Shown here: one piece after another, positions 19,823-32,211 of the stretch
Layout: each line of letters opens with the position of its first letter
Position numbering within the stretch: position 1 is the stretch's first letter
Assembly (NCBI GenBank): GCA_014584695.1
Contig: JACTMI010000031.1
Span: forward strand, 1 to 64,000
Source of the DNA: Acidobacteriota bacterium
Lineage (GTDB): Bacteria; Acidobacteriota; Thermoanaerobaculia; Multivoradales; JAGPDF01
Length of the DNA stretch: 64,000 nt
Direction: 5' to 3'
The notes under the pieces: model-generated
Seen by the model: the letters and a program-made list of their open reading frames with translations, nothing else
Databases searched by the model: none
Told to the model about the DNA's origin: nothing
Position numbers and translations under genes: made by a program

Positions 19823-22255
19823 GTGACGCCGCGGGATTTCGCCTCGGACTGGTCCGGCGAGCGCTGGCTCGCCGAGGTGCTCGACGCGCTGCCGGTGGCG
19901 GTTTGGTCGGTGCGGCGCGACGGCTCGATCGCCTTCGCGCGTGGCGCCGTGATCTCGACGCTCGGCCTCGATCCCCAGGCGCTCGTCGGCCGCGACTTCT
20001 TCGCGCTCTTCGCCGTGCAGCCGGAGCTGATCAGCCAGGTGCGGCGCACGCTCGCCGGCGAAGGCTCTTTCACCCGGGCGCAGTTCGGCGGGCGCGTCTT
20101 CGAGACCCGGCTGACGCCGCTCGGGGACGGCCAGGGCGAGGTGGTCGCGGCGATGGCGGTGTCGGTCGACGTCACCGATCGCGCCCGCGACGAAGCGGAG
20201 CTCGAGCGCCGCAGCCGCCTCCTGCACGCGGTCTCGACCGTCGCCCAGCGCTTCCTCTCGACCGAGGACCTCGAGGCCTCGACCCGCCGAATTCTCGACG
20301 TGATCGGCCGGACGCTCGACGTCGGGCGCGTCTACGTGTTCGAGAACCGCTTCGAGGCGAGCGGCCGCATCGTCTCGGATCTGCGCTGGGAGTGGGTCGC
20401 CGACGGCGTGCCGCGGCAACTCGACAACCCGGAGCTCCAGCAGCTGGGGCTGCTCGACGAGCGCTTCCAGGAGATCACCGTCCCCCTGAGCTGGGGCGAG
20501 ACGGTGGCCAAGTCGACCGCCGAGTGCAGCCCGGAGCTGGCCGAGTTCCTGCGCGGGTTCGGGATCGAAACGCAGTTGGTGGCGCCGATCTTCGTCGCGG
20601 ATCGCTTCTGGGGGCTGATCGGCTGCCACGAGACCCGCGGCGCGCGCGAGTGGACGCCCGAGGAGACCGGGGCGCTGCGGGCGGTGGCGGCGCTCTTCGG
20701 CGCCGCCCGGGAGCGGCAGCGGGTGGTGGGCGAGCTGCGCGAGAACGAGGAGAAGTACCGCGAGCTGGTCGAGAACGCCACCGATCTGGTCTGGTCGATA
20801 TCTCTCGAGGGCCGGTTCCTGTCGGCCAACCGCGCCATGGCGACCCTGCTCGGCTACGAGCTCGACGAGATCGTCGGCGAGCCCTGGGAAAAGCTGATTC
20901 CGGAGCCCGAGCAGCAGGAGATCGTCCGCCGGGCGATCCGGGAGAAGGTGAGCGGCGACCGCGCGCGCACCACCTACGAGGTCCGCCTGCGGGCCAAGGA
21001 CGGTCGTTTCGTCCAGGTCGAGGTCAGCTCGCGGCTGGTCGAGCGCGACGGCCGGGCTGCGGCGATCCACGGCACCGGCCGCGACGTCAGCGAGCGGCGG
21101 CGGCTCGAGGAGCAGCTGCGGCAGGCGGTGAAGATGGAGGCGGTGGGGCGTCTGGCGGGGGGAGTGGCGCACGACTTCAATAACCTCCTGACCGCGATCA
21201 GCGGCTACGGCGAGCGGATCCTCGCCCGCCTGCGCGCCACCGATCCGATGCGCGGCGAGGTGATGGAGATCCTGAAGGCGGGCGAGCGCGCGGCCGACCT
21301 GACCCGCGAGCTGATGGCGTTCGGCCGCCGGCAGCCGGCGATGCCGAAGGAGATCGACCTCAACCGGATGATCGAGCAGCGATTGGGGATGCTGCGCCGC
21401 ATCGTCGGCGACGAGGTGGTGGTGGTCAACCTCGCCGAGGCGCGGATCGGGCGGATCCTCGCCGACCCGACGCTGGTCGAGCAGGTGCTGGTCAACCTGA
21501 TGGTCAACGCGCGCGACGCGATGCCGCGCGGCGGCCGCATCGAGCTCGCGACCGCGCCGGCCGACCCGCTCGAGATCCGCCGCCGCGGGCTCGAGTTCGT
21601 GCCGCACCCGGGCTACGCGCGGCTGTCGGTGCGCGACACCGGTGAAGGGATGGACGCCGCGACGATGGCGCGGATCTTCGAGCCCTTCTTCACCACCAAG
21701 GAGCTGGGCAAGGGCTCGGGGCTGGGCCTGTCGACGGTCTACGGCATCGTCAAACAGTGCGAGGGCTACATCTTCGCCGACTCCCATCCCGGCCAGGGCA
21801 CGGTTTTCCACGTCTACTTCCCGGAGGCCTCGCCGGCGGAACGGCCGGCGGCACGGCCGAGCGGCGAGCACCGGGTCGCGGTGCCGCAGCGCGAATCGAT
21901 TCTGCTGGTGGAGGACGAGGACCTGATCCGCAACCTGGCCGAGCAGATCCTGCTCGACCACGGCTACCGGGTCTTTGCGGCCGCCAACGCCGCCGAGGCG
22001 ATCGAGCTGTCGGGCCGCACCAGCGAGGAGTTCGACCTGCTACTGACCGACATCGTGATGCCGGGCGTGTCGGGCAGCGATCTCGCGCAGCGGCTGCTGC
22101 GCCACTACCCGAAGATGCGGGTGCTCTACATGTCGGGCTATTCGGACAGCCTGATCTTCCGCTACGGCGTCCTGCAGGAGCGCGCCGCCTTCCTGCAGAA
22201 GCCCTTCAGCGCCGACGTCCTCGAGCGCAAGGTCCGCGAGCTGCTCGACGGCTGA
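19823..22255 (+). CDS. hybrid sensor histidine kinase (PAS-GAF-PAS-HisKA-HATPase-REC)
   Basis: 810-residue soluble hybrid kinase. PAS (about 10-125), GAF (about 130-300; IVSDLRWEWVADGVPRQL), PAS/PAC (about 310-430; FVQVEVSSRLVERDGRAAAIHGTGRDVSERRRLEEQL), HisKA with acceptor His in GGVAHDFNNLLTAISGYG (about 448), HATPase with NLMVNARDAM (N box) and GKGSGLGLSTVYGIVKQ (G boxes), and a C-terminal receiver (about 690-805) with SILLVEDED, Asp in LLLTDIVMPG and Lys in FLQKPFS. No membrane segments. The start is GTG at 19823, 16 bases after the permease gene, so cotranscription is likely. The HDFNN subclass usually passes phosphate to NtrC-like or separate regulators; none is encoded next to it. Confidence 0.93.
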   Translation: MTPRDFASDWSGERWLAEVLDALPVAVWSVRRDGSIAFARGAVISTLGLDPQALVGRDFFALFAVQPELISQVRRTLAGEGSFTRAQFGGRVFETRLTPLGDGQGEVVAAMAVSVDVTDRARDEAELERRSRLLHAVSTVAQRFLSTEDLEASTRRILDVIGRTLDVGRVYVFENRFEASGRIVSDLRWEWVADGVPRQLDNPELQQLGLLDERFQEITVPLSWGETVAKSTAECSPELAEFLRGFGIETQLVAPIFVADRFWGLIGCHETRGAREWTPEETGALRAVAALFGAARERQRVVGELRENEEKYRELVENATDLVWSISLEGRFLSANRAMATLLGYELDEIVGEPWEKLIPEPEQQEIVRRAIREKVSGDRARTTYEVRLRAKDGRFVQVEVSSRLVERDGRAAAIHGTGRDVSERRRLEEQLRQAVKMEAVGRLAGGVAHDFNNLLTAISGYGERILARLRATDPMRGEVMEILKAGERAADLTRELMAFGRRQPAMPKEIDLNRMIEQRLGMLRRIVGDEVVVVNLAEARIGRILADPTLVEQVLVNLMVNARDAMPRGGRIELATAPADPLEIRRRGLEFVPHPGYARLSVRDTGEGMDAATMARIFEPFFTTKELGKGSGLGLSTVYGIVKQCEGYIFADSHPGQGTVFHVYFPEASPAERPAARPSGEHRVAVPQRESILLVEDEDLIRNLAEQILLDHGYRVFAAANAAEAIELSGRTSEEFDLLLTDIVMPGVSGSDLAQRLLRHYPKMRVLYMSGYSDSLIFRYGVLQERAAFLQKPFSADVLERKVRELLDG

Positions 22256-22279: not shown

Positions 22280-22307
22280 TTGACTTTCCGTCTCAAGTCC
22301 GTATCAT
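22280..22307 (+). promoter_or_regulatory. promoter of the suf operon
   Basis: TTGACT (22280-22285), a 16-base spacer, TATCAT (22302-22307). The start would be near 22314, right at the edge of the palindrome at 22315-22339. Confidence 0.75.
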
Positions 22308-22314
22308 TGGCGGG

Positions 22315-22339
22315 AAACAGTACTTAATCTGTACTGTTT
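22315..22339 (+). promoter_or_regulatory. palindromic operator, likely Rrf2 autoregulation site
   Basis: AAACAGTAC-TTAATCT-GTACTGTTT, perfect 9-base arms with a 7-base spacer, 17 bases before the regulator's ATG. It covers the expected transcription start and first transcribed bases, so bound protein would block the suf promoter. AT-rich in GC-rich surroundings, as expected for a conserved site. Confidence 0.8.
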
Positions 22340-22355: not shown

Positions 22356-22829
22356 ATGATCCGGATGACGAAGCAGACCGACTACGGATTCGTCCTGCTC
22401 TCCGAGCTGGCCGCGGAGCCCGAGAAAGTGGCCAACGCGCCCGAGCTCGCGCACGAGACGCGACTGCCGCAGCCGATGGTCGCCAAGATCCTCAAATTGC
22501 TGGCGCGCAACGGGTTGGTCCGCTCCCACCGGGGCGTCAAGGGGGGCTACTCCCTGGCCCGCCGACCGGCCGAGATCTCCGCGGCCCAGATCGTGCGCGC
22601 GCTCGAGGGTCCGGTCGCGCTCACCGTCTGCATCGACGGCAGCCCGGGCGAATGCGAGCACGAAACCTATTGCTCGGTTCGGGCGCACTGGCAGCGGATC
22701 AACGAGGCCGTCGACACCGCGCTCGGCACCATCACGCTGGAGGACCTCGCCCGGCCCGCCGGGCCGCCGCTGATCCAGCTCGGCGCCGCCCGGCCGGGCG
22801 CCGGCGCGAGCCTGCGCCAGCCTGCCTGA
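22356..22829 (+). CDS. Rrf2-family Fe-S regulator of the suf operon
   Basis: 157-residue DNA-binding repressor. Winged helix at 1-85 ([48 protein letters not shown]). Cysteines C92, C100 and C106 lie where IscR carries its three cluster ligands, so it probably binds an Fe-S cluster and senses its supply. It resembles the SUF-specific Rrf2 group found at the head of sufBCD operons. A promoter and perfect palindrome overlap the start region, indicating autoregulation. After the wing, the Pro/Ala tail (about 130-157) is not conserved-looking. It is first gene of the operon, with sufB 46 bases on. Confidence 0.93.
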
Positions 22830-22875: not shown

Positions 22876-24327
<1,452 letters not shown>

Positions 24328-24370: not shown

Positions 24371-25135
<765 letters not shown>

Positions 25136-25151: not shown

Positions 25152-26486
25152 ATGAGCGAGACCCTGGTCGAAGCCTCCCCCTTCGCCGCCGAGCTCGACG
25201 CGGCCCTGGCCCGCGCCGAGCCGGCGGCGCTCACCGCCCTGCGCGCCGAAGCCGCCGGTCGCTTCCGCGCCCTCGGGCTGCCGAGCCTCCGGGACGAGGA
25301 GTGGCGTCACACCAACGTCGCGCCGGTGGCCAAGCTCCGCTTCGTCGCGCCGCGACCCTGGAGTGGCGCGCGGGCGGCCGAGCTCGCCGAGGAGATCGCC
25401 CGTTTTCGCCTCGACGGCACCTGCGAGCTGGTCTTCGTCGACGGTCGGTTCGCGCCCGAGCTGTCGGCGACCCTGCTGCCCGAAGGAGTCGCCATCGAGA
25501 GCCTGGCGCGGCGGCTGGCGCGCGACGCCGGCGGGCTCGCTGCCGTGCTCGGCCGCAAGGCCCGCTTCGACGCCCACCCGTTCCTGGCGCTCTCGACCGC
25601 GCTGTTCGAAGACGGTGCGGTGGTCGAGGTGGCGCCGCGCGCGGTGGTCGAGACGGCGCTCCACCTGATCTTCTACTCGACCGCATCGCCGGAGCCCCAG
25701 GCGAGCTTCCCGCGCACCCTGATCCTCGCCGGCGAGGCGAGCCAGGCGACGGTCGTCGAGAGCTTCGCCGGCGCACCCGGCGCGATCTATCTGACCTGCC
25801 CGGTGACCGAGCTGGTGGCGGCTCGGGCGGCGGTGGTCGACCACTACAAGCTGCAGCGCGAGAGCCGGGCGGCGTTCCACCTGTCGGGGATCGCGGTGGA
25901 GACGGCGCGGGCGGCCAACGTCGCCAGCCACTCCTTCTCGCTGGGCGGCGCCATCGTCCGCCACGACATCCGCGGCGCTCTCGCCGGTGAGGGGAGCGAG
26001 GCGACGCTCAACGGCCTCTACCTGGTCGAGGACCGGCAGCTGGTCGACACCCACATGCGGGTCGACCACCTGGCGCCCCACTGCGCCAGCCACGAGCTCT
26101 ACAAGGGGGTGCTCGACGGGCGCGCGCGCGCGGTCTTCTCGGGGCGCATCCACGTCCACCCCGGGGCGCAGAAGACCGACGCCAAGCAGACCAACCGCAA
26201 CCTGCTGCTTTCCGAGGAGGCGATCGCCCACTCGCAGCCGCAGCTCGAAATCTACGCCGACGACGTCAAGTGCACCCACGGCTCGACGGTCGGCCAGCTC
26301 GACGACGAGGCGGTCTTCTACCTGCGCTCGCGCGGCATCGGCATCGAAGCGGCGCGCAGCCTGCTCACCTACGCCTTCGCCGCCGACCTGGTCGAGCGGG
26401 TAAAGGTGCCGGCGCTGCATCGTGAGCTGCAGGAGTTCCTGTTCGCCTGGGTGCCGCAGGGCGAGGTCGTGCGCGACGCCGTCTGA
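25152..26486 (+). CDS. sufD: Fe-S cluster assembly protein SufD
   Basis: 444-residue partner of SufB in the SufBC2D complex. The N-terminal helical part (LRDEEWRHTNVAPVAKLRF, about 45-63) is the usual SufD entry motif. The right-handed beta helix runs about 150-380, with VVDHYKLQRESRAAFHLSG, GEGSEATLNGLYLVEDRQLVDTHMRVDH and ARAVFSGRIHVHPGAQKTDAKQTNRNLLLSEEA. The C-terminus CTHGSTVGQLDDEAVFYLRSRGI is a strong family signature and carries the histidine used with the SufB cysteine. ATG at 25152, 16 bases after sufC. Confidence 0.96.
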   Translation: MSETLVEASPFAAELDAALARAEPAALTALRAEAAGRFRALGLPSLRDEEWRHTNVAPVAKLRFVAPRPWSGARAAELAEEIARFRLDGTCELVFVDGRFAPELSATLLPEGVAIESLARRLARDAGGLAAVLGRKARFDAHPFLALSTALFEDGAVVEVAPRAVVETALHLIFYSTASPEPQASFPRTLILAGEASQATVVESFAGAPGAIYLTCPVTELVAARAAVVDHYKLQRESRAAFHLSGIAVETARAANVASHSFSLGGAIVRHDIRGALAGEGSEATLNGLYLVEDRQLVDTHMRVDHLAPHCASHELYKGVLDGRARAVFSGRIHVHPGAQKTDAKQTNRNLLLSEEAIAHSQPQLEIYADDVKCTHGSTVGQLDDEAVFYLRSRGIGIEAARSLLTYAFAADLVERVKVPALHRELQEFLFAWVPQGEVVRDAV

Positions 26487-26520: not shown

Positions 26521-27777
26521 ATGACCATCCCGGCGCGGACGGAAACGGCGGCCGGCGCGCCGCCGCTCGAGGTCGAGCGGGTGCGGGCCGAGTTCCCGAT
26601 CCTCGGCCGCCGCTTCGGCGGCCGGCCGCTCGTCTACCTCGACAGCGCGGCCACGGCGCAGAAGCCACGCGCGGTGCTCGAGGCGCTGCAGCGGTTCTAC
26701 GGCGAGTCGAACGCCTCGGTGGCGCGCGGCGTCCACCGCCTCTCGGCCGAGGCCACGGCTGCCTACGAGGCCGCGCGCGCGACCGTCGCCGCTTTCCTCG
26801 GCGCCGCCGAGCCGTCCGAGGTGGCGTTCGTCCGCGGCACCACCGAGGGGATCAACCTGCTCGCCGCCGGGCTCGCCAGCCGGATCGGGGCCGGCGACGA
26901 GATCCTGGTCACCCGCCTCGACCACCACTCGAACTTCGTCCCCTGGCAGCGGCTCGCCGCCGAGCGCGGCGCGCGCTTCCGGATCGCCGACATCGACGCC
27001 GACGGCGACGTGACGCTCGACGAGATCGACCGCTGGCTCGGCGGGCGCACGCGGGTGGTGGCGCTGCCGCACGTCTCGAACGCCCTCGGCACCGTGCTGC
27101 CGGTGGCCGAGATCGCGGCGCGGGCGCGCCGGGTGGGCGCCCTGGTGGTGGTCGATGGGGCCCAGGGCGCGCCCCACTTGCCGGTCGACGTCGCCGCCCT
27201 GGGCTGCGACGCCTACGCTTTCTCCGGCCACAAGACGTACGGCCCGACCGGCATCGGCGCGCTCTGGATCCGGCGCGAGCTCGGCCGCGAGCTGCCCCCT
27301 TACCAGACCGGTGGCGGCATGATCCGGACCGTGGGCGACGAGACCACCGACTTCGCCGAGCCGCCGCAGCGTTTCGAGGCCGGCACGCCGGCGGCGGCCG
27401 AGGCGGTCGGTCTCGCCGCCGCGCTCGACTGGATGACCGCGCTCGGTCCGGCCCGCATCGCCGCCCACGAGTCCGCGCTCGCCGCCGAGCTGGTCGCCCG
27501 GCTCGAGCGGATCCCGCGGGTGGTGGTGCTCGGGCGGCCGCGCGAGCGCGCCGGCGTCGTCTCGTTCCTGGTCGAGGGGATCCACGCCCACGACGTCGGC
27601 ACCGTGCTCGATCACGAAGGGATCGCGGTGCGGGCCGGGCACCACTGCGCGCAGCCGCTGATGCGGCGGCTGGGCGTGCCGGCGACCGTGCGCGCCTCCT
27701 TCGCCGCCTACTCGACGGCGGCGGAGGTCGAGGCGCTGGCCGCGGCGGTCGAGAAAGCGCGCACACTGTTCGGATAG
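26521..27777 (+). CDS. sufS: cysteine desulfurase SufS
   Basis: 418-residue PLP enzyme that takes sulfur from cysteine to feed the Suf scaffold. The PLP lysine is K238 in AFSGHKTYGPTG; the persulfide cysteine is C376 in RAGHHCAQPLMRRLG. The N-terminal FPILGRRFGGRPLVYLDSAATAQKP and LDHHSNFVPW are typical of group II (SufS/CsdA). The C-terminal active-site segment is the short group II kind, which needs a sulfur acceptor such as SufU, encoded next. ATG at 26521 is chosen because the family begins at MTIPART and GGAGGA lies just upstream; the frame is open further only by overlap with sufD. Fourth structural gene of the operon. Confidence 0.96.
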   Translation: MTIPARTETAAGAPPLEVERVRAEFPILGRRFGGRPLVYLDSAATAQKPRAVLEALQRFYGESNASVARGVHRLSAEATAAYEAARATVAAFLGAAEPSEVAFVRGTTEGINLLAAGLASRIGAGDEILVTRLDHHSNFVPWQRLAAERGARFRIADIDADGDVTLDEIDRWLGGRTRVVALPHVSNALGTVLPVAEIAARARRVGALVVVDGAQGAPHLPVDVAALGCDAYAFSGHKTYGPTGIGALWIRRELGRELPPYQTGGGMIRTVGDETTDFAEPPQRFEAGTPAAAEAVGLAAALDWMTALGPARIAAHESALAAELVARLERIPRVVVLGRPRERAGVVSFLVEGIHAHDVGTVLDHEGIAVRAGHHCAQPLMRRLGVPATVRASFAAYSTAAEVEALAAAVEKARTLFG

Positions 27778-27782
27778 CGGCC

Positions 27783-28229
27783 ATGTCGGAGCTCGAAGAC
27801 CTCTACCAGGAAGTCCTGCTCGACCACTACCGCAGCCCCCGTCACCGCGGGCGGCCGGCGGGCGCCGATCACGAAGCGGAGGGGTTCAATCCGCTCTGCG
27901 GCGACCGGGTCAAGGTCTTCGTCGAGCTCGACGGCGAGCGCCTGCGCGCCGTCGGTTTCGACGGCTCCGGCTGCGCGATCTCGACCGCCTCGGCGTCGCT
28001 GATGTGCGAGGCGCTCCAGGGTCTCACGCGAGCGGAAGCCGAGCGGCTCGCGGCCGACTTCCGCGCCGCGGTGACCGGCGCGGCGTCGATCGATCCCGAA
28101 CGGCTGGGCAAGCTGGTGGCGCTCGCCGGGGTCGCCGAGTTTCCGATGCGCGTCAAGTGCGCCACCCTCGCCTGGCACGCCCTCGACGCCGCACTGGCCA
28201 GCCCCGGGACGAAGGTCTCGACCGAGTAG
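27783..28229 (+). CDS. sufU: SufU-type sulfur carrier / Fe-S scaffold
   Basis: 148 residues. Zinc or cluster ligands: C39 and D41 (NPLCGD), C64 (GSGCAIS) and C126 (VKCATLAW). The 18-20 residue insertion typical of SufU relative to IscU is present between the second and third cysteines (EAERLAADFRAAVTGAASIDPERLGKL). SufU accepts sulfur from SufS, the gene 5 bases upstream. LYQEVLLDHYRSPRHRG at the start is the family N-terminus. Last gene of the suf operon; transcription of the next gene appears independent. Confidence 0.95.
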   Translation: MSELEDLYQEVLLDHYRSPRHRGRPAGADHEAEGFNPLCGDRVKVFVELDGERLRAVGFDGSGCAISTASASLMCEALQGLTRAEAERLAADFRAAVTGAASIDPERLGKLVALAGVAEFPMRVKCATLAWHALDAALASPGTKVSTE

Positions 28230-28252
28230 CCGCCGGCGCCTTTGGCGCGTGC

Positions 28253-28258
28253 TACGCT
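28253..28258 (+). promoter_or_regulatory. TACGCT, probable -10 of the propeller sensor kinase
   Basis: GTGCTACGCTCGG after the sufU stop. It would start transcription near 28265 and leave a leader of about 30 bases with a GGAGGGG site. The same hexamer sits before serS. Confidence 0.4.
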
Positions 28259-28296
28259 CGGCGCGGCCTCGCGGCCGGGGACCGGAGGGGTGGCCG

Positions 28297-31200
28297 ATGA
28301 TGGATGGGAGCGCTCGCGGTCGGTACTCGCCCGCCAGGCGGGCGGTCCTGCTCGCGCTCCTCGCCGGCGTGTTGTCGCAGCCCTCTCGAGCCGACGCCCA
28401 GCAGCTCCCCTTCACGCTCTACACCGCCGACGACGGGCTCGCCGGGACCCAGGTCTGGGACGTCCGCCAGGACCGCAACGGCTACCTCTGGGCGGCGACC
28501 ACTTGGGGACTCGCCCGCTTCGACGGCGAGCGATTCTCGAGCCTCTCGGTGCCCGAGGGGCTGCCGAGCGCCAACGTCCGCAACGTGCTCGAGGATGGTC
28601 GCGGCCGCCTCTGGATCGGTACCAACGGTGGGTTAGCCCTCTACGACGGGCGGCGCGTCGAGGTGGTCGCCGACCTCGGCGGCCTCTCGCCCTCGCCGGT
28701 GTGGGTGAGCCGAGCCGACGGCGCGGGCCGGCTCTGGTTCGGCACCGAGCGCGGCCTGCTGCTCCACGACGGCCGCCGCATGCGCGCTTTCACGCGCGAC
28801 GATGGGCTCGCCGACGACTACGTCTACTCGCTCTGGCCGGCCGCGGACGGCTCGCTGTGGGTGGGCTCCCGGGGCGCCGGCGTGGCGCGCTGCGAGCTCG
28901 ACGGCGACGGCGGCCTGGCCGCCTGCCGGGTCTACGACGAGCGCGACGGTCTCGGGCACGGCGTGGTGCGGTCGATCACCGAGGACAGTCGGGGCCGCAT
29001 CCTGCTCGCCACGCGCGGAGGCGGGCTGGCGATCTGGGACCAGGGGAGCTTCCGCCGGCTGACGCACGCGGACGGCCTCCCCGGCGACGACCTCTACGCC
29101 CTGCTGGTGCGGCCGAACGACCAGCTGGTGATCGGCTCGAGCGACAGCGGGCTGGCGGTCTGCCAGCTGCCGTCCCTGCGCCGCTGCCTGAGTTGGCGCG
29201 AGCCGAGCGGGCTGCCGGACGATCAGGTGCGCGCGCTCTTCGAGGACCGCGAAGGAACGCTCTGGGTCGGCACCGAGGGCGGGCTCGCCCGCCTCTCCCG
29301 TAGCGATCTGTGGAGCTACGGTACGGCCGAAGGGTTGCCCGGCCGCCACGCTTACGCGCTCGCGGCCGACCCGCGCGGCGGCATGTGGATCGGCACCGTC
29401 GGCGGCTTGGCCCGGCTCGACCTCGGGCCTCATGGCGAGCCCGCGGTCGCGAGCTGGGACCGGCGCCAGGGGCTGCCCGGCAACTGGGTCTGGGCGCTCG
29501 CGGCCGAAGCCAACGGGGCGCTCTGGGTGGGGACGGAGCAGGGCCTCTGCCGGCTGCCACCGGCGAGGGGCACCTGCGAGCGCTTCGGGCGCGAGGACGG
29601 GTTGACCGCCTCCTACGTGCTCGACCTGCTGCTCGACGGCAGCGGCACGCTCTGGGTGGCGACGACGGATGGCCTGGCTCGCTCGCGCCCCGGACCGGCG
29701 GGCGGGCGGATGCGCTTCGAGATGTACCGAGAGTCCGATGGCCTCGCCAACCGGCGCTCCTACACGCTCGCGGAGGATCGCGACGGCCGCCTCTGGGTCG
29801 CCCACAACGAGGGATTGAGCTGGCGCGACGGCGACCGCTTCGCGGGCTGGACCTCCCGCCAGGAGCCCGCGGTCGCGGCGGCCCGCAGCCTCGCCCGCAC
29901 GCCCGACGGCGAGCTCTGGGTGGGAGGCTTCGGTTTCATCGCCCGCCTCGCCGGCTTCGAGGCAGGTGCGCCGCGGTTCGACCGCTTCTCGGTCGACGGC
30001 GAGCTCGGCGGCGCGCTCGTGCTCGCCATCGCGGACGGTGGCGAGGGTCGACTCCTGCTCGGCACCAACCGCGGCGTGCTGTTGTTCGATCCGCTCGGGC
30101 GCGGCGGGCGGGGCGACCTGCTCGCCCGCTTCGATCGCTCGAGCGGGACGATCGCCACCGAGGTGGCCCATTCGAGAGCGTTCGCGCGCGACCTCGCCGG
30201 GCGCGCCTGGTTCGGGTTCAAGGGGGGCGTGACCGTCTTCCCGTCGGATCTCGCCGTGCCTGCCGCGCCGTCGCCGCAAGTCACCTTCGAGCGCGTCGAG
30301 ACGAGCTCGGGTCAGGTCTATCGCGCGCCGTTCAGCGCCGTGGATCGCGGCGGGCGGTCGCGCTGGCTCGGCTCCGATCCGGTCGCGCTGGTGCCCGGCG
30401 AGCGGAGCCTGCGGGTCAGCGTGCGGGCGCTCACGTTCCGGCGCGAGAGCGGCGTCCGCTTCCAGTTCCGGATGGCGGGGCTGGACCGCGATTGGTCGGA
30501 GTCGGCGGCGCTGCCCGTGCGCGACTTCACCAACCTCGATCCCGGTCGCTACCGGCTCGAGGCGCGGGCGGCGCTGGGCGACGCGCCGTGGGGAGCGGCG
30601 TCGGCGCTGGCGATCGAGGTCCGCCCGAAGCTCTGGCAGACCGCGCCGGTGCGGCTGCTGGGCGCCCTGACGGCCGGGGCGTTGATCGCCCTCGCGGTGC
30701 TCGCGCGGACGCGACGGATGGAGCTGCGCGCGGCGGAGCTCGAGCGGGAGGTCGGCGAAAGGACCGACGATCTGGCCCGCTACGCGCGCGCGCTCGCCGA
30801 GCACCTGGCGGCGCTCGACCAGGGCGCCGCCCGGGTGCGCGACGCCGATCGCGCGCGGCGCGAGCTGTTGGCGAGCCTCTCGCACGAGGTGCGCACGCCG
30901 CTGACCTCGATTCTGGGCTTCTCCGAGCTGCTGGAGTCCTCCGCCGCCTCGAAGATGACGGCGCGCGAGCTGCGCTATCTCGCCAACGTGCGCGAGAGCG
31001 GCAATCACCTGCTGCGGCTGGTCAACAACCTGCTCGATCAGGCCAAGCTCGAAGCCGGCCGGATGGAGGTCCACAACGAGCCGGTCGATCTGGCGGCGGT
31101 GCTCGGCAGCATCGTCTCGTTGATGGAGGGATTCGCGCTCACCCGCGATGTGCGCATCGAGATTCGCGTCGAGTCGGCGCCGCCCGAGGTGGAGGTCGAC

Positions 31201-32211
31201 GTCGCGAAGCTGCGCCAGATCCTGATCAACCTGCTGTCGAACGCGATCAAGTTCTCGCCCGCCGGCGCCGCCGTGACGGTCGGCGCGCGCGCTCTCGGCG
31301 CCGCCGATTCGCGCCTCGGCGAGGAGGGCTACGAGATCGAGGTCGCCGACCGGGGACCGGGCATTCGAGCCGAGGAGCTGGCGACCATCTTCCAGCCCTA
31401 CCGCCAGGCGGGCTCGGGCGCGCCGGTGCAGCCGGGTACCGGGCTGGGCCTGCCGATCGTCCGCCAACTGGTGCAGCTGCTGGGCGGTTGGGTGGAGGTC
31501 GAGTCGCCGCCGGGACAGGGTTCGCGCTTCCGGGTGGTGCTCCCCCGCGTGGCGCACCGAGGCGAAGTCGTCGCGCCGGAGCCGGGCGACCGGGGCGTAG
31601 CCGACCGGCCGCGGGTGCTGGTGATCGAGCCCGACCGGACCCGCTTCGGCGACCTCGCCGAGGCGCTGGAGCCGGCCGACTTCCTGGCCGTCCGCGCGCC
31701 CGATGTCGAGGAGGCCCGGCGGATGCTGCCCGAGCTGCGGCCGATCGCCCTGGCGTTTGCCTTCGATCCTTCCCGCGCCGAGGCGTGGGGCGAGCTGGCA
31801 CGGCTCGAGCGTGATCTCGAGCGCGGCCACCTGCCGCTCGCGCTGGTCGCGCGCGCCGGCGCCGGGAATCGGGGTTGGGCCCTGCTGTTCGACCGGGTCT
31901 TGCCAGCCGGCAGCGAGGAGCCCGAAGTGCGCGCCGCGCTGGCGCAGCTCGGATCGGCGGCGGCGGAGGCCTTCGTTCCCGGCGGCGCGCCGGCGCCCGG
32001 TCTCGCCGAAGTAGCCCGCAACCAGATGGGCGAGGAGGCGGTACCGTGGCTCCTGGTGCTGCCCGGCGAGATTCCGGCGGCGCGGCGATTGCGCTGGTCG
32101 GCCGAAGTCGAGGCCGCGCCACCGCGCGTCGGCGAGGCGCTGTGCGCGCTGCTGCGCCGGGCCGAGCACCGGCGCGGTCCCGGCGCGGCGAAGCACGGCG
32201 GCAGCGACTAG
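28297..32211 (+). CDS. two-component propeller sensor histidine kinase with degenerate receiver
   Basis: 1304-residue membrane kinase. Signal-like N-terminus (RRAVLLALLAGVLSQPSRADA), two seven-bladed Reg_prop propellers outside the cytoplasm (about 35-690; repeated units such as GRLWIGTNGGLALYDG and LWVGTEGGLARLS), a Y_Y_Y domain (about 700-790), one membrane helix (LLGALTAGALIALAVLA, about 797-815), HisKA with SLSHEVRTPLTSILGFSELL (about 875), HATPase with NLLSNAIKFSPAG and GTGLGLPIVRQLVQLLGG, and a C-terminal receiver-like part (about 1105-1290). The receiver keeps VLVIEPD but lacks the usual Lys (FDRVLPAG) and is probably not phosphorylated. The architecture resembles the BT-type hybrid sensors but lacks the AraC output domain. 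ATG at 28297 follows GGAGGGG. The ligand is unknown. Confidence 0.9.
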   Translation: MMDGSARGRYSPARRAVLLALLAGVLSQPSRADAQQLPFTLYTADDGLAGTQVWDVRQDRNGYLWAATTWGLARFDGERFSSLSVPEGLPSANVRNVLEDGRGRLWIGTNGGLALYDGRRVEVVADLGGLSPSPVWVSRADGAGRLWFGTERGLLLHDGRRMRAFTRDDGLADDYVYSLWPAADGSLWVGSRGAGVARCELDGDGGLAACRVYDERDGLGHGVVRSITEDSRGRILLATRGGGLAIWDQGSFRRLTHADGLPGDDLYALLVRPNDQLVIGSSDSGLAVCQLPSLRRCLSWREPSGLPDDQVRALFEDREGTLWVGTEGGLARLSRSDLWSYGTAEGLPGRHAYALAADPRGGMWIGTVGGLARLDLGPHGEPAVASWDRRQGLPGNWVWALAAEANGALWVGTEQGLCRLPPARGTCERFGREDGLTASYVLDLLLDGSGTLWVATTDGLARSRPGPAGGRMRFEMYRESDGLANRRSYTLAEDRDGRLWVAHNEGLSWRDGDRFAGWTSRQEPAVAAARSLARTPDGELWVGGFGFIARLAGFEAGAPRFDRFSVDGELGGALVLAIADGGEGRLLLGTNRGVLLFDPLGRGGRGDLLARFDRSSGTIATEVAHSRAFARDLAGRAWFGFKGGVTVFPSDLAVPAAPSPQVTFERVETSSGQVYRAPFSAVDRGGRSRWLGSDPVALVPGERSLRVSVRALTFRRESGVRFQFRMAGLDRDWSESAALPVRDFTNLDPGRYRLEARAALGDAPWGAASALAIEVRPKLWQTAPVRLLGALTAGALIALAVLARTRRMELRAAELEREVGERTDDLARYARALAEHLAALDQGAARVRDADRARRELLASLSHEVRTPLTSILGFSELLESSAASKMTARELRYLANVRESGNHLLRLVNNLLDQAKLEAGRMEVHNEPVDLAAVLGSIVSLMEGFALTRDVRIEIRVESAPPEVEVDVAKLRQILINLLSNAIKFSPAGAAVTVGARALGAADSRLGEEGYEIEVADRGPGIRAEELATIFQPYRQAGSGAPVQPGTGLGLPIVRQLVQLLGGWVEVESPPGQGSRFRVVLPRVAHRGEVVAPEPGDRGVADRPRVLVIEPDRTRFGDLAEALEPADFLAVRAPDVEEARRMLPELRPIALAFAFDPSRAEAWGELARLERDLERGHLPLALVARAGAGNRGWALLFDRVLPAGSEEPEVRAALAQLGSAAAEAFVPGGAPAPGLAEVARNQMGEEAVPWLLVLPGEIPAARRLRWSAEVEAAPPRVGEALCALLRRAEHRRGPGAAKHGGSD

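Follow-up and report, generated by a model that had tools for sequence, protein, structure and literature searches.

A conserved dyad at the suf promoter of an acidobacterium, a predicted operator of a RisR-like Rrf2 regulator that may also read iron-acquisition promoters

The suf operon described here lies in a 64-kb window (the whole stretch of DNA that was analyzed) of an acidobacterial genome whose closest named relatives are Thermoanaerobaculia, Acidobacteriota. Its genes run in the order rrf2-sufB-C-D-S-U, with 46 bp between the rrf2 stop codon and the sufB start. Upstream of the operon (19823–22255) is a large gene that resembles a sensor kinase and carries a response-regulator tail, and downstream (28249–32211) is a beta-propeller-plus-kinase-like protein, both assigned from translation alone. 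The features of the operon and its promoter are as follows.

22280..22285, + strand: −35 element TTGACT of the rrf2-suf promoter (from the sequence; relatives have TTGACA/T at the same place)
22302..22307, + strand: −10 element TATCAT, 16-bp spacer (from the sequence; TATCAT/TATGAT kept in close relatives)
22315..22339, no strand: 25-bp predicted operator AAACAGTAC-N7-GTACTGTTT with 9-bp arms, over the inferred start site (comparable dyad at ≥15/18 in 75/87 rrf2-sufB loci, a partly circular count)
22356..22829, + strand: Rrf2-family regulator, TIGR02944 SUF system regulator, 157 aa (TIGR02944 128.6 bits, cut-off 110.65; Pfam Rrf2 2.8e-36)
22380..22382, + strand: Asp9 codon, residue matching cluster ligand Asp8 of NsrR (phmmer, against NsrR 5n07; Asp in 86/87)
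22629..22631, + strand: Cys92 codon, predicted cluster ligand (kept in 86/87 orthologues)
22653..22655, + strand: Cys100 codon, predicted cluster ligand (kept in 87/87)
22671..22673, + strand: Cys106 codon, predicted cluster ligand (kept in 87/87)
22876..24327, + strand: sufB (NF008773 2e-276)
24371..25135, + strand: sufC (TIGR01978 4.7e-108)
25152..26486, + strand: sufD (TIGR01981 3.9e-82)
26521..27777, + strand: sufS, start codon inferred (TIGR01979 3.7e-156)
27783..28229, + strand: sufU (TIGR01994 1.4e-43)

The promoter TTGACT-N16-TATCAT had been proposed in the original prediction, and it is present at 22280–22307. Seven bases separate TATCAT from the dyad AAACAGTAC-TTAATCT-GTACTGTTT (22315–22339), which would cover the transcription start of rrf2-suf. 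In relatives, the typical suf promoter is TTGACA-N16-TATCAT or TATGAT, with its first base 29 to 39 bp upstream of the site; a −35/−10 pair within 3.5 penalty units was found at 54 of the 75 suf loci with a site and lay upstream of the site in 50 of these 54. This recurring geometry indicates that the promoter was correctly identified and that the dyad sits over the inferred start point. The element had also been called a perfect 25-base palindrome. Both 9-bp arms are perfect and lie where the start was expected, but the 7-bp center is asymmetric, so that the element is a perfect 9-7-9 dyad and is not palindromic across all 25 bases. With up to three mismatches allowed, it is the sole match in the 64-kb window (0.00 expected) and in the 4.35-Mb genome (0 for a backward-pattern control).

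Related loci came from two sources: named contigs, which contributed 80, and a set of 59 genomes drawn from the same order or closer, among them the window's own. Pooling gave 138 loci. We removed L001 along with 24 duplicates, recognized by identical first 100 residues; from the remaining 113, we kept 87, including the window's own, in which sufB lies within 400 nt at ≥50% identity, and set 26 aside. Expected counts came from 50 dinucleotide shuffles of each upstream region and serve as a comparison rather than as probabilities, since the relatives are not independent. With the window's word alone as the probe, at least 13 of the 18 arm positions matched in 50 of the 86 other loci (0.22 expected), and at least 12 matched in 67 (2.1 expected); the top score in a same-length coding-region control was 11. 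A degenerate form derived from the set scored at least 15/18 in 75 of the 87 rrf2-sufB loci, a count that is partly circular because the motif comes from the same loci (the 50/86 figure is not), and by the same measure, the other 12 loci had no good site. Some of the site-bearing loci are labeled Planctomycetota, Alphaproteobacteria, Gammaproteobacteria, or cyanobacteria. In a 149-genome sample of the phylum, the strict pattern occurred at 15 sites in 14 genomes, with 9 of the 15 adjoining an Rrf2 match by position; the backward control occurred once. A palindrome confined to this one operon would have spoken against the proposed operator; instead, the suf dyad is an evolutionarily conserved, operator-like site of the suf promoter. 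One acidobacterium (L023) has two adjacent operator-like dyads before rrf2-suf. In a further group (L056–L080), most of whose members are Gemmataceae or other Planctomycetota, the neighbor of a related Rrf2 gene is a SufS-like aminotransferase (∼28% identity) instead of sufB; the upstream words, AAATAGNACTTG among them, suggest a different operator.

The consensus of the 75 suf sites is A-A-(A/T)-(C/T)-N-G-(G/T)-A-C-N7 followed by its mirror image. Half-sites pair as GGAC-N7-GTCC in 44 sites, as GTAC-N7-GTAC in 14, and in other combinations in 17, which makes the window's own GTAC word a minority variant; the same-genus relatives L002 and L004 carry the GGAC form. A search, over 738 tests, for regulator residues that track GTAC versus GGAC had its lowest p (4e-5) at T8, and we did not use it because it is confounded by relatedness. 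The commonest form, GGAC-N7-GTCC, contains GAC-N7-GTC, the footprinted core at which holo-RisR of Myxococcus xanthus is described as repressing suf and isc (PMC9973013). The broader motif is thus not IscR-type; the original remark was that the site differs from the Escherichia coli IscR sequences. The accompanying suggestion that the site could define the motif of its clade is not supported, given the minority standing of the GTAC form and the precedent for the core in the published RisR description (PMC9973013).

The adjoining Rrf2 protein has the three cysteines that had been described as IscR-like, and they are conserved as listed above. Their spacing among the 87 orthologues is 7/5 in 67 (the window's protein included), 6/5 in 17, 9/5 in 2, and 4/5 in 1; Lys44 and Arg59 are kept in all 87. 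The IscR label itself is not supported. According to the respective reports, IscR recognizes DNA through Ser40, Glu43, and Gln44 (PMC9973013), and Caulobacter IscR has a His ligand three residues past the third Cys (PMC11475020); here, the corresponding residues are Pro40, Ala43, and Lys44, and Arg109 stands in place of the His. In NsrR, Asp8 is reported as a cluster ligand supplied by the partner subunit (PMC5411485) and Lys45 as a candidate major-groove contact (PMC9338935). The combination of an NsrR-type Asp with the missing IscR recognition residues and His points to an NsrR/RisR-like sensor, probably of the [4Fe-4S] kind, in which Asp9 may act as a ligand. Models of the characterized families all score below their cut-offs: IscR (TIGR02010, 61.7 bits of 207.55; PRK10857, 37.6 of 275), RirA (PRK11920, 68.6 of 193), and NsrR (PRK11014, 40.9 of 182).

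A conserved dyad at the suf promoter and an adjoining three-cysteine Rrf2 together make cluster-dependent autorepression of sufBCDSU, the regulation originally proposed, the best reading of the locus. It has two competitors. The protein could be an IscR orthologue with a [2Fe-2S] cluster acting at a variant of the IscR type 1 site, in keeping with its three cysteines, the rrf2-suf gene order, and the Rrf2 fold; we rejected this identification on the TIGR02010 score, the P/A/K triplet, Arg109, and the NsrR-like Asp9, and consider it very improbable. An inverted repeat across a transcribed start could also form a hairpin in the RNA, or the dyad could have arisen by chance and have no regulatory role. 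Here, what is conserved is the sequence itself and not mere symmetry, even at sites with differing half-sites, and the copies that lie between −35 and −10 elements (below) are untranscribed, so that this explanation is the least credible of all. We consider it likely, although well short of certain, that an Fe-S-sensing, autorepressing Rrf2 of the TIGR02944/RisR kind has the dyad as its operator and that the same protein reads the iron-acquisition sites described next.

The original prediction was confined to suf and overlooked what is most likely a wider iron regulon marked by the same motif. A relaxed pattern, AAWYNGKAC-N7-GTMCNRWTT with two mismatches, matched six extra places in the window's genome, with none for the backward control. 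One site stands before a Fur-family gene with feoB behind it (L139), another before a TonB-dependent receptor gene (L144), and a third before a long sufT gene (L140:1501–1525). A near-match before a class-V aminotransferase gene (L141) has no promoter context. We set aside this near-match and the last two, L142 and L143, as chance or unclear; L143 lies inside a gene, and L142 likewise has no promoter context. We also discarded sufT as a general target: only 2 of 30 sufT upstream regions scored at least 15/18, both in the window's genus (L140 and L186).

Across the 59 genomes, 117 motif sites were found at up to one mismatch, against 5 for the backward pattern. Pfam assignments of neighboring genes included TonB receptors (L165, L248, L254, L261, L273, L274, L275, L284, L285, L287, and L290, the last with another reading frame between site and receptor), solute-binding proteins (L167, L249, L265, L267), ApbE (L252, L253), PepSY (L271, L282), a ChaN-like protein (L291), Fe/Mn superoxide dismutase (L255), CRP-type regulators (L251, L261), and the Fe-S carrier Mrp/ApbC (L174). 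Among the matches listed, 13 of the 33 non-suf, non-fur places have a nameable iron- or Fe-related neighbor and 20 do not. Upstream regions of fur scored at least 15/18 in 18 of 30 cases (0.03 expected). At L254, two sites (1239–1263 and 1317–1341) lie 78 bp apart between divergent genes, one of them a TonB receptor.

The iron-uptake promoters share an architecture distinct from that of suf. All 18 motif-bearing fur promoters read TTGACA-N18-CAGAAT, and the motif fills the spacer and overlaps both hexamers; its right half, GTCCAGAAT, is invariant in these 18, which we attribute to a double duty as operator and −10 element. Farther downstream, 10–15 bp from the motif sites of iron promoters, stands a second dyad, TTGAGA-N5-TCTCAA. 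With up to one mismatch, it occurs beside 34 of 71 distinct non-suf sites as against 0 of the 75 suf sites; copies are found at L139:1538–1554, L144:1472–1488, and 31 further loci (some of them overlapping copies), and in the window's own genome, the distance is 12 bp at both the fur-feoB and the receptor promoter. The Fur-family protein encoded with feoB probably binds the second dyad, as a candidate for autoregulation: at embedded promoters outside the fur loci, the dyad accompanies 13 of 17 sites in genomes with a Fur orthologue and 1 of 3 where Fur was not found, a small and circumstantial co-occurrence. The second dyad may bear some resemblance to the Irr box of rhizobia.

Only the suf site might belong to the suf-linked Rrf2, with the iron sites read by another regulator, either an unrelated dimer or an Rrf2 paralogue, and their likeness to the suf dyad due in part to the overlapped −35 and −10 elements. 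The iron-promoter sites are asymmetric, as this would have it, and their near-invariant CAGAAT right edge doubles as a −10 element; moreover, the window's genome encodes two further Rrf2 paralogues, potential binders of some sites. However, the GGAC-N7-GTCC core between −35 and −10 keeps its N7 spacing, which a promoter does not need, and the sites at mrp/apbC (L174) and sufT (L140) belong to Fe-S genes yet lack the embedded-promoter context. In genome G014, the only Rrf2 gene detected is that linked to suf, and nine motif sites occur, which favors one reader for all of them. Three genomes (G003, G016, and G032) have motif sites without a detected suf-linked Rrf2, and their sufB is absent or fragmentary, so that an assembly gap is the likely cause. 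We regard a separate reader as an unlikely alternative, although one with an appreciable chance of being right.

With a single Rrf2 reader as the preferred reading, the following mechanism can be proposed. When clusters are plentiful, the holo-dimer, holding a probable [4Fe-4S] cluster through Cys92, Cys100, Cys106, and Asp9 of the partner subunit, would sit on the 25-bp site that covers the start point and block transcription of rrf2-sufBCDSU; under iron shortage or oxidation, the cluster would be lost and the repressor released from the suf site. The same protein would most likely read AAWYNGKAC-N7-GTMCNRWTT on the fur-feoB and TonB receptor promoters of the window's genome and, in relatives, on receptor, ApbE, PepSY, and solute-binding-protein promoters. 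At these iron-acquisition promoters, where the site fills the space from TTGACA to CAGAAT, often followed by the putative Fur-family box, the presence of both elements leads us to propose that both signals must be relieved. Whether the RisR-like sensor acts as a global iron regulator of the lineage in this way, as a two-input gate with its operator in the −35/−10 spacer and 10–15 bp upstream of a Fur-family box, is to our minds an evenly balanced question. If so, iron import would open only when two inputs are low together, Fe-S status and a second signal, metal or redox, and suf would respond to the Fe-S input alone.

Comparison with characterized regulators places the predicted system nearest to RisR of M. 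xanthus, which belongs to Rrf2 group IS6, a group said to include Acidobacteria (PMC9973013). As far as the published description of RisR extends, both have an Rrf2 gene at the head of the suf operon, three cysteines, and a motif with AT-rich flanks over the promoter (PMC9973013); the GAC-N7-GTC core of RisR is contained in the commonest form here, GGAC-N7-GTCC, and the window's own site reads GTAC-N7-GTAC. They differ in cysteine spacing (9/5 in RisR, with C92, C102, and C108, against the prevailing 7/5 here), in the tolerance of the core here for G or T (GKAC), and in the presence of the motif on iron-uptake promoters, the described RisR targets being isc and suf (PMC9973013). Rhizobial RirA, too, is reported as an Rrf2 regulator with a [4Fe-4S] cluster and as a repressor of iron uptake (PMC6748827); it belongs to another phylum, has the IRO box as its site, and its model does not recognize the present protein. 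IscR of Caulobacter and E. coli autoregulates Fe-S assembly, and the described targets of the Caulobacter protein include a TonB-type gene and sodB, in overlap with the Fur regulon (PMC11475020), but its His ligand, recognition residues, and motif are not those seen here. Streptomyces coelicolor NsrR shares the Asp8-type ligand position (PMC5411485), and NsrR also has a Lys at the equivalent position in its recognition helix (PMC9338935); unlike the sensor proposed here, it responds to NO. The stacked-operator iron regulon would thus be comparable in role to those of RirA and Caulobacter IscR, with a different protein subgroup and motif. We found no paper linking GGAC-N7-GTCC or a RisR-type site to iron uptake in a literature search that reached only a minority of subscription papers.

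For a widespread, little-cultured soil phylum, these sites suggest an iron regulatory logic at the sequence level, and they would bring iron import, besides Fe-S assembly, under RisR-type regulation, with binding and the sign of regulation predicted from conservation, placement, and co-occurrence. The motif gives a means of annotating iron regulons in metagenome-assembled genomes and brings with it a candidate new Fur-family DNA box, and the single-operator suf promoters and double-operator uptake promoters offer a natural contrast.
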